Notes under the pieces: model-generated
What the model saw: only the letters and a program-made list of their open reading frames with translations
What the model was told of the DNA's origin: nothing
Database searches by the model: none
Made by a program: the position numbers and the translations under genes
In this document: piece after piece, positions 52,027-55,501 of the stretch
Position numbering within the stretch: the stretch's first letter is position 1
Layout: each line of letters starts with the position of its first letter
NCBI GenBank assembly: GCA_026418535.1
Contig: JAOABC010000003.1
Location: 1 to 64,000, forward strand
Source: Hydrogenothermaceae bacterium
GTDB taxonomy: Bacteria; Aquificota; Aquificia; Aquificales; Hydrogenothermaceae
Direction: 5' to 3'
Length of the DNA: 64,000 nt

Positions 52027-52299
52027 TTACTTGATTTTTTCTTTCAGAGATTTTGCAGCTGTGAAAGCCACTACCTTTCTTGCAGGGATTGTGATTTCTT
52101 TTCCAGTTCTTGGGTTTCTTCCTTTTCTTGCTTTTCTAATTCTAACGTTGAAAACACCAAGTCCAGGGATAGCAACTCTCTCTCCCTTAGTAAGAGCTTC
52201 TATCACAGCCTCAATAGCGGCATTTACTGCTCTTTCAGCGGAAGCCTTGGTAATCCCAGCTTTTTCAGCTGTTTTTGCAACAAGTTCTGACTTGGTCAT
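52027..52299 (-). CDS. HU-family DNA-binding protein
   Basis: A 90-residue nucleoid protein. N-terminal MTKSELVAKTAEKAGITK, DNA-arm region GVFNVRIRKARKGRNPRTGKE and AKSLKEKI at the end. The frame opens at 52350, but ATG 52299 follows AAGGAGGG at eight bases and gives the family N-terminus. It lies directly downstream of the broken mutS. Confidence 0.94.
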   Translation of the reverse strand: MTKSELVAKTAEKAGITKASAERAVNAAIEAVIEALTKGERVAIPGLGVFNVRIRKARKGRNPRTGKEITIPARKVVAFTAAKSLKEKIK

Positions 52300-52353
52300 T
52301 GAGACATCCCTCCTTACGTAAAATGATAGATTTAAATTTACAATAAACATATT

Positions 52354-54788
52354 TTAGATGTCAAGATTTTTCTTGCATTTTATGCCACTTTTTAGTTCAT
52401 TGAGGATGTTCAGAGCTTGGAGTGGCGTTGTGTTGGCTATATCTATCTCCTCTAACTTCTTCATAATATCGTAATTTTCTTTTAAATCTGGAAAGATCAT
52501 CTCCTCAAATATAGAGTAGTCATCTAATCCTTTCTTTATATCTTTTTCCGACTCAAACTTTACTAATATCTCCTGAGCCCTCAGAATAACATCCTCCGGA
52601 ATACCTACAAGTTTAGCTACGTGGATTCCATAACTTTTATCTGCCTTACCTTCTAAAACTCTGTACATAAACCTTATGCTCTCTTTCTCTTCTAAGACAT
52701 ACATCGTATAGTTTTTAACCCCATCCAACTCCTCCTCCAAGGTTGTAAGTTCGTGGTAGTGGGTGGAAAAAAGGGTTTTAGCTTTTATATCTCTGCTTAC
52801 CTTCTCACAAAGAGACCAAGCTATGGAGATACCGTCGTATGTGCTCGTTCCTCTCCCAACCTCGTCGAGGATTATGAGACTTCTCTCTGTAGCGTTGTTT
52901 ATGATGTTGGCCACCTCAAGCATCTCCACCATAAAGGTAGATAGGCCCTTAGAAAGGTAGTCAGCGGAACCTATCCTTGTGTAGATCGCATCTACCACCC
53001 CTATCCGTGCAGAGGTAGCAGGAATGAAAGAACCTACATGGGAGAGCAGCACAAGTAGACCAACCTGTCTTATAAACGTACTCTTTCCAGACATGTTAGG
53101 ACCGGTAATGATGTGGATGAAATTATCTCTGTCAAACTTTACCGAGTTTGGAACAAACTCTCTATTAAAACTTGATACAACCGGATGCTTACCCTCCTCT
53201 ATCTCTATAGAGTAATCCGGGATTACTTCAGGCTTTATCCATCCACCCTCCAGGGCAACCACAGCGAGAGACTGAATTGCATCAAGTACACCAACCCACC
53301 TGGCTGTTTCCTCTATTCTGTTTGAAGATTCAACAACCATCTGTCTTATCCTTTGGAATATTTCATACTCCAGGTTCTTTATCTTCTCATCAGCGGAGAG
53401 TACTTATCTTCAAACTCCTGAAGCTCTTGAGTAACAAACTTCTCTGCTGTTGATAGTGTCTGTCTTCTTCTGTAGTCGGGAGGGACAAACTTAAGGTTTG
53501 GTTTGGTTATCTCTATGTAGTATCCCATAACCTTGTTGTATCCCAATTTTAGGCTGGATATACCTGTTCTCTCCCTCTCTCTCTGCTGATACTCCATAAG
53601 CCAAAACTCTCCTTTTGACTTTATCTCCCGTAGTTCATCAAGATATATGTCAACACCTTGCTTTATTAATCCCCCTTCTTTCAGATGAACAGGTGGATTG
53701 TCCTCAAGATGTCTATCCAGGAGCCCTACCATATCAGAGAAGTCTTCTATGTTCTCTAGAATTTCCTTCAGAAATGGAGACTCTAGATTATAGTCTACGC
53801 TCTTTAGTTGGCTTACCTTTCTCAAAGACTCTCTTAATGAAACCATATCCCTTGGTGATAGAGTGTTTGAGGTTATCTTTGAGACCAACCTCTCAATATC
53901 GAAAACACCATTCAGTATCTCCCTTATCTCTTCCCGAAGGGAGTGCTTCTTAAATAACTCCTCTACAGAGTCTTGTCTTGCTTTTATCTGGTTTATATCT
54001 TTAAGTGGATGTAGCAAGAAAAACTTAAGCCTCCTTTTTCCCATAGGAGTGAGAGTTCTGTCTAAAACAGAGAGAAGGGAACTACCTCCCTCACTTCCCG
54101 CTACCTCTAGGTGCTTTATAGCATTCTGGTCAAGTTTTACAAACCTGTCTTCTGTATAGAGCTTAGGAGGTGAAATGAAGGGGAAAAAGCTCTTCTGAGT
54201 AGTTTTAACGTAGAGTAGTAAACCGGCAGCAGAAACAAGGGCAAAGGTGTCTTTATCATAAATACCAAAAGACCTGTAGTTCAGGGTTTTGAAGTGTCTT
54301 AGGAGATCATTGATAGACTCGTCCCGAAAAAAATCCTTTGGAACGGAAGTTCTGTATATACCCTTAAAATCAGCCTCTAAAAAATCTGGATTAAACCCCT
54401 CCTCAACGATGATCTCTCTAGGAGAGAGCTTAGCGATGAAGTTAATAAGGCCTTCTAACTCAAACACTCCACAGTAAAATTCTCCTGTTGACAGGTTAAG
54501 ATAAGAGGTGGAAAACCTGTTACCTCTCTAGTATACAGACACCAACCCTGTCCTGATTTTGTCATTGTCGAAGTATGTTCCTGAAGTGATTACCCTGATA
54601 ACATCTCTCTTTACTATACCTTTTGCAGTAGACGCATCTTCAAGCTGTTCACATATGGCTACAGAATAGCCCTTCTCAACCAGCCTTGCTATATAACTAT
54701 CAGCAAAGTGATAGGGTATACCACACATAGGTATGTCTCTATTCTTTGAAACTCTCTCTTTAATGGAGTATTTATTATATGTTATCAT
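52354..54788 (-). pseudogene. mutS: mutS: DNA mismatch repair protein, broken in three places
   Basis: MutS recognises mispairs and starts repair. Three lesions are read directly. First, the gene begins at about family residue 45-50: upstream of [10 protein letters not shown] only about 19 unrelated-looking residues remain and the mismatch-binding FYE region is gone. Second, an in-frame TAG at 54528-54530 lies between GLVSVY and RGNRFSTSYLNL. Third, near 53400-53404 a one-base deletion (AAGTA for AAGGTA) ends the frame at 53379; the next frame continues LSADEKIKNLEYEIF. The C-terminal ATPase (GPNMSGKST, DEVGRGTS) is well kept, so the loss looks recent. No intact MutS can be made from this locus. 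Confidence 0.88.
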
Positions 54789-54820
54789 CTTTTAACAACA
54801 TTTCAAATTTGGGGGTAAAG

Positions 54821-55501
54821 ATGGAGCTGTTCTTAAGCCCCTTTTTTCCACTCATCGTCTTCTTAGCCTTTTTGCCATCAGTAGATAGCCCGGATGTTGT
54901 GATAGTAGGAGAGAATCATACAGACACGCAAGACCATAGGAAACAGTTAGAAGTGATAAGGGATATCTACTTGAAAGATAGAAGGGTTATTATCGCTATG
55001 GAGATGTTTCAACAGCCTTTTCAAGAACATCTAGATAGGTACATAGAAAATAAGATAGGGGAAGATGAGCTTCTAGAAGAGACAGAATACAAAAAGAGAT
55101 GGGGATACGACTTTTCTCTCTACAGAGATATCCTGAACTTTGCCAGAGAGTCTAGGATAAAGGTAGTTGCAATAAACGTACCTTCAGAGCTTTTGAAGGA
55201 AGTTAAAGAGAAGGGCTTAGACAAGATATCCTCAGACTATCTTCCTAAAGAGAGGTTGACCTACAATAAGAAAGAGCTTGATTTCATATACTCTTCTATG
55301 GAAGGACACAGTATAAAAGACAGTAAGAAGTTCTTAGAAGTTCAGTACAGTTGGGATGCTGGGATGGCTTATAAGATAGTCAAGTTAAAGAAGGAGTTTC
55401 CAGATTACAAGATAGTAGTTTTGATAGGAAAAGGACACAGTGAAACGGTTTCGAGGTTTATAAGAGTTCTTTCCAAAGATATAAAGGTTGTAGTATACTG
55501 A
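54821..55501 (+). CDS. ChaN/Tiki-type iron-regulated (heme-binding) protein
   Basis: A 226-residue exported protein. Signal peptide MELFLSPFFPLIVFLAFLPS, then VVIVGENHTDTQDH near the N-terminus, AMEMFQQPFQ and the C-terminal VLIGKGHSE, the GEN-H and GxxH patterns of the ChaN/TraB-Tiki superfamily. Some members bind heme. ATG at 54821 behind GGGGGTAAAG is preferred over 54779. Its 5' side lies exactly at the truncated end of mutS, which is divergent. Confidence 0.8.
   Translation: MELFLSPFFPLIVFLAFLPSVDSPDVVIVGENHTDTQDHRKQLEVIRDIYLKDRRVIIAMEMFQQPFQEHLDRYIENKIGEDELLEETEYKKRWGYDFSLYRDILNFARESRIKVVAINVPSELLKEVKEKGLDKISSDYLPKERLTYNKKELDFIYSSMEGHSIKDSKKFLEVQYSWDAGMAYKIVKLKKEFPDYKIVVLIGKGHSETVSRFIRVLSKDIKVVVY

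Follow-up and report, generated by a model that had tools for sequence, protein, structure and literature searches.

Probable recent inactivation of a vertically inherited mutS gene in a member of the Hydrogenothermaceae

Background

MutS detects mismatches by stacking the phenylalanine of a Phe-X-Glu motif into the DNA, and natural loss of its gene is known in many bacteria. Mismatch repair is reported to cut mutation rates roughly 100- to 1000-fold (PMC9226502). Among the Actinobacteria, Mycobacterium smegmatis, which has neither mutS nor mutL, shows an ordinary mutation rate (PMC4938668), and NucS is named as the known substitute in this group (PMC8228993). For the Aquificota we found no earlier report of mutS loss in the open-access literature, which may be a faint hint of novelty.

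Here we describe the mutS locus in a stretch of 64,000 nucleotides (the window) from a Hydrogenothermaceae bacterium, whose genome is available as a draft assembly of 1.468 Mb in 29 contigs (99.94% complete). It appears very likely that positions 52357-54788 of the minus strand represent a recently inactivated, vertically inherited mutS (MutS1), once the only copy in the genome.

Structure of the locus

Open frames and Pfam matches indicate that MutS is encoded in three pieces on the minus strand between positions 52357 and 54788. Piece 1 (54531..54788) comprises 86 codons, covers MutS_I positions 47-112, i.e. the C-terminal part of the mismatch-binding domain, and ends at an amber codon. Piece 2 (53382..54527) contains domains II, III and IV in 382 open codons, the earliest common start codon being a GTG at 54467. 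Piece 3 (52357..53403) holds the end of domain III and the ATPase domain V in 349 codons, and its first ATG, at 53340, would leave 328 amino acids. A TAG interrupts the frame common to the first two pieces; the third lies in a different frame, one base being missing around 53403. Instead of the single open frame of about 850 codons expected of MutS1 (intact frames in relatives have about 811-924 codons), the locus is thus divided into three by a TAG and a one-base deletion.

A partial MutS_I followed by MutS_II, MutS_III, MutS_IV and MutS_V were found on the pieces in the usual order, with Pfam scores of 280 bits for MutS_V, 128 for MutS_III, 98 for MutS_IV and 64.5 for MutS_II. Domains II-IV and the domain V ATPase motifs of MutS1 are present by homology, with 66% identity to the sister species (G001), the only other member of the genus examined. 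Piece 3 retains TGPNMSGKSTFIRQ, DEVGRGTSTYDG and STHYHEL, and the Walker and signature motifs are still there, in line with the preliminary description, in which the ATPase end was considered close to the family form.

An HU-type DNA-binding protein gene (52027..52350, minus strand) follows directly 3' of mutS, with a pseudouridine synthase gene further downstream, and an intact ChaN-like gene (Cofac_haem_bdg; 54779..55501, plus strand) lies divergently upstream. This arrangement matches that of the sister species, where the gene order is identical. Since the ChaN-like gene divergently adjoins mutS in the sister and in three other relatives (G025, G015 and G021), the wreck sits at the ancestral locus.

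The preliminary description had reported a lost N-terminus, an amber codon and a frameshift, and all three were recovered in the sequence. With respect to the first, the loss itself stands, but it has to be redefined as a deletion slightly within the 5' end of mutS, preceded by an upstream element that is shared with the sister. In an alignment with 20 relatives the homologous reading starts around 54776, and the Pfam MutS_I match begins at profile position 47 of 113, whereas the relatives cover positions 1-112. The sister protein has 45 residues ahead of the equivalent point, GDFYELF among them, and these have no counterpart in the window. The start codon and approximately the first 45 codons have therefore been removed by deletion, and with them the Phe-X-Glu motif that reads mismatches (GDFYE in relatives): the alignment shows piece 1 without it, and neither Pfam nor the alignment recovers the Phe-X-Glu part of domain I in the window. 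Compared with the sister, roughly 165-170 bases are missing. The junction, placed by eye in the same comparison, falls at approximately 54774..54779 (minus strand) and connects the upstream element with approximately codon 46; in the sister an ATATA-like string, also read by eye, occurs at both ends of the segment deleted in the window. The upstream element GATGATAACATATA (54776..54792, minus strand) has a close counterpart in the sister, some 40 bases ahead of the mutS ATG, which identifies the N-terminal loss as a 5'-end deletion and not a rearrangement of the locus. The element itself might be what is left of a mutS promoter, or it might belong to the divergent ChaN-like gene.

The in-frame amber codon TAG (54528..54530, minus strand; VSVY*RGNRF) is aligned with a lysine of the sister or its equivalent elsewhere. 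The one-base deletion (approximately 53403..53404, minus strand) lies outside any homopolymer and shifts the frame inside domain III/IV. The frame from 54527 to 53382 terminates in LQEFEDK-YSPLMRR and a stop codon, and the frame from 53403 reads on as VLSADEKIKNLEYEIF; in all relatives VLSADEKIKNLEYEIF follows directly after LQ.FE.K.

The deletion has thus taken away the site where translation starts as well as the Phe-X-Glu loop that reads mismatches, and the amber codon and the one-base deletion have cut the remainder into three frames. No mutS product able to recognise mismatches would then be made, and the cell would presumably be without MutS-MutL mismatch repair.

Remaining copies and partners

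The preliminary description had called mutS dead and the organism devoid of MutS-type mismatch repair unless a second copy exists, and had suggested a search for such a copy and for mutL. Both searches were run. A whole-genome domain search yielded no MutS_I beyond the partial one in the window, and only two MutS_V domains, one in the wreck and one in an intact MutS2 (match at C23:112788-113333, frame of 784 codons). MutL is present as an open frame of 519 codons, with its transducer and C-terminal domains each detected, and NucS, searched for in the window genome, is absent. The lesions, the absent motif and the lack of an intact copy at or beyond the locus thus uphold the earlier claim: a broken copy lies at the ancestral locus and none that is intact elsewhere in the assembly, as is expected of a pseudogene. 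An intact mutS could in principle be located in sequence outside the 29 contigs.

Alternative explanations

The organism could have an intact mutS and the lesions could be artefacts of sequencing or assembly, which we consider very unlikely. The lesions were read from the assembled sequence, a draft in 29 contigs, and in a related record, that of the sister, frameshifts at A9-A11 and (AT)9 tracts illustrate how uncertain such calls may be. Yet in the window the lesions consist of a deletion of about 165-170 bases, a nonsense codon and the loss of one base outside any homopolymer, i.e. three independent events in one gene, two of which lie outside repeats. As a control, open reading frames were compared between three samples: contigs C22 and C23 of the window genome (400 kb), the sister (800 kb) and G025, a relative with an intact mutS (800 kb); genes of at least 150 codons were used and antisense shadow frames were filtered out. 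A single gene of the 152 from G025 that were matched in the 400 kb is split, and this is mutS, with both breaks detected. The error rate is thus low and, mutS being the only split gene in this set, sequencing errors are an unlikely source of its lesions; apart from mutS, itself conserved, the assembly shows no such defects in conserved genes. When the nearer sister served as the reference, 7 of 229 genes were flagged as split, mutS among these. Genuine decay is suggested for several others: two glycosyltransferase-like genes are fragmented (C23:92133-93672), an SfsA-like gene is frameshifted (C23:206580-207304), and a glutamate-dehydrogenase-like remnant has lost its middle (C23:104089-104721).

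It is highly improbable that the pieces are still useful, as a split or short MutS (domains II-V or V alone) made from internal starts and devoid of mismatch recognition, for instance in the role of a partner for ATPase activity or dimerisation or of an anti-recombination factor. The length of the two larger open frames (382 and 349 codons), the conserved ATPase motifs and amino-acid changes that are not in excess would agree with a retained role, and a partial protein may be expressed, but this conservation is explained as well by a recent inactivation. Moreover, the break inside domain III/IV parts the lever and clamp from the ATPase, an architecture that is found in no relative, and we know of no functional MutS in which these are separated.

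Finally, rescue by recoding, in which amber readthrough and frameshifting would yield a long product, was rejected for the window and is given practically no weight. A weaker version may hold for the sister, where a -1 shift at ATA-AAA-AAG rejoins both frames exactly. In the window start codon and Phe-X-Glu loop have been deleted outright, so that readthrough and frameshifting could not restore mismatch recognition, and a slippery heptamer is not present at 53403 (read from the sequence).

Timing of the loss

A recently inactivated gene thus remains the preferred reading, and the pattern of divergence bears on how recent the event was. Differences between the window and the sister at codon positions 1, 2 and 3 amount to 0.19, 0.15 and 0.53 in piece 1, 0.30, 0.19 and 0.58 in piece 2, and 0.26, 0.16 and 0.58 in piece 3. 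They thus fall mostly on third positions, and mutS is not eroded. In a three-way relative-rate count with the window genome, G001 and G025, based on gene triples in the sampled sequence, mutS had 79 changes on the window side and 75 on that of the sister (ratio 1.05), whereas 78 other genes had 2930 against 1891 (ratio 1.55). The gene in the window lineage was thus slower than the genome average (p = 0.02), to which a relaxation on the sister side could contribute. Otherwise invariant mutS sites had changed in 16 of 272 cases in the window (5.9%), 13 of 269 in the sister (4.8%) and 12 of 268 in G010 (4.5%). A relaxation of constraint since the inactivation was therefore not seen, which implies a recent event and does not show function. 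Selection was still acting while most of the divergence of mutS accumulated, which makes the death of the gene a recent event relative to the age of the genus. An ancient pseudogenisation was rejected, as there is no excess of changes at invariant sites or in the relative rate. The evidence of recency equally fits a lesion that is specific to a clone or strain.

The proteins of the window genome as a whole changed 1.55 times as much as those of the sister over the 78 gene triples; MutS2 lies above this value (2.33) and mutS below it. The G+C content is also higher in the window genome (38%, versus 33% in the sister). In mutL 10 of 101 otherwise invariant sites had changed, the highest value of 16 genomes. 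A decay of mutL following the loss of mutS is not claimed, its rate ratio of 1.93 being no different from the 1.55 of the genome (p = 0.26).

Distribution of mutS and mutL in the Aquificota

MutS_I was matched in 84 of the 92 Aquificota genomes that are at least 90% complete; the eight without a match include the fragmented drafts G050 and G077, which may be incomplete. The Aquificota ancestor very likely had mutS. MutS1 is absent from G008, G028 and G033 of genus g8 and from G053, G057, G073 and G074 of genus g16 (all four genomes of that genus in the phylum scan). A full-length MutS query retrieved only MutS2 from the genomes without MutS1, save one weak match of 66 codons in G028. MutL is also missing in five of the five such genomes tested (G008, G028, G033, G053 and G057), its absence from g16 resting on the family of the N-terminal side, as MutL_C is undetected in most of the family to which g16 belongs. 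Four congeners within g8 (G015, G021, G025 and G031) retain both genes. Mismatch repair has thus been lost separately in this order at least two times.

In the sister species mutS is also split, into a frame of 150 codons with a complete MutS_I and one of 735 codons, offset at ATT-ATA-AAA-AAG-GAG. The break (G001:C3:172339-172350) falls at codons homologous to the amber codon of the window, and since the lesions differ the two breaks are independent. The heptamer A AAA AAG is a textbook -1 slippery site; accordingly, the split in the sister is a candidate only: it may be a further break that arose independently, an error of sequencing or a site of -1 recoding. Three further split genes of the sister have their breaks at A10, A9 and (AT)9 tracts, the last gene also near an A7 (G001:C3:34895-34931, 302234-302254, 287402-287426 and 289036-289081); the A10 and (AT)9 tracts are the longest of their kinds in the 800-kb sample. 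These breaks possibly reflect the microsatellite instability expected from a loss of mismatch repair, or sequencing error. In G054, a relative at the level of the Aquificaceae, a G7 tract some 155 codons into mutS carries a frameshift (L053:1938-1950, G054:C6), a site that differs from those of the other breaks.

The tally for the Aquificota is at least two complete losses, one pseudogene (the window) and two single-frameshift candidates. With mutS dead and mutL whole, the window genome would be at an early stage of the loss of repair. It is quite possible, though we would not call it probable, that MutS-MutL repair has been lost repeatedly and in parallel in this phylum, mutS first and mutL later: two clades would then have lost both genes, both species of one genus would have had their mutS broken independently with mutL intact, and the frameshifts of the sister at its longest A and AT runs would be an early indication of microsatellite instability. 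MutL of the window organism would have been left without its partner, and the next decay would be expected in mutL, as in the two Aquificota clades without both genes.

Implications for mutation

The preliminary description had proposed a natural mutator thermophile. The window organism may be one, the predicted consequence of the loss being a higher rate of transitions and small indels. No excess of frameshifts at simple repeats is evident in the 400-kb sample of its genome; every one of the longest runs there is within or borders on a gene for which no split was flagged, which lends the proposal no support. A/T runs of at least 8 are no more depleted there than in the mutS-positive G025, from which it differs in base composition. 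Nor are the 1.55-fold faster proteins specific to a mutator, since mutS of the sister is split too. The lack of a repeat-instability signature would fit a recent loss or a compensation by polymerase fidelity.

As a separate observation, G008, which is free of mutS and mutL, has fewer A/T runs than its congener G025 with intact mutS: 112 versus 184 per Mb for runs of 8, and 2.5 versus 11 per Mb for runs of 9 (G008:C1:1-400000, including 5000 N, and G025:C1:1-800000; composition similar). This may be a long-term footprint of missing mismatch repair.

Comparison with known systems

The window locus bears on how high-temperature organisms hold their mutation rates down. A pair of species with a freshly dead mutS and an intact mutL, from a phylum in which entire clades have shed the pathway, would permit a direct test of the loss at high temperature, covering the rate and spectrum of mutation, the stability of repeats and recombination between diverged DNA.

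As in mutS-deficient hypermutator strains and other mutS pseudogenes, a single-copy mutS was hit by ordinary mutations, mutL and the rest stayed, and the event is recent with little erosion. Unlike the hypermutators known from pathogens and laboratory lines, the present case concerns a group of free-living, chemolithotrophic thermophiles. It also differs from fresh single-hit mutators in that three lesions are already there, which makes the state of the gene older than theirs.

As in the Actinobacteria without mutS and mutL, such as Mycobacterium smegmatis (PMC4938668), MutS1-dependent repair is not expected in the window organism, but in contrast to these its genome keeps an intact mutL and remnants of mutS, and has no NucS. 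The closest parallels are found in the same order, in the Sulfurihydrogenibium-like clade (G008, G028, G033) and genus g16, which have no MutS1. There, however, neither mutS nor mutL has left a detectable trace, and the window genome would represent an earlier stage of the same process. The window mutS is thus a new instance of a known phenomenon, to which the parallel losses in related genomes add interest.
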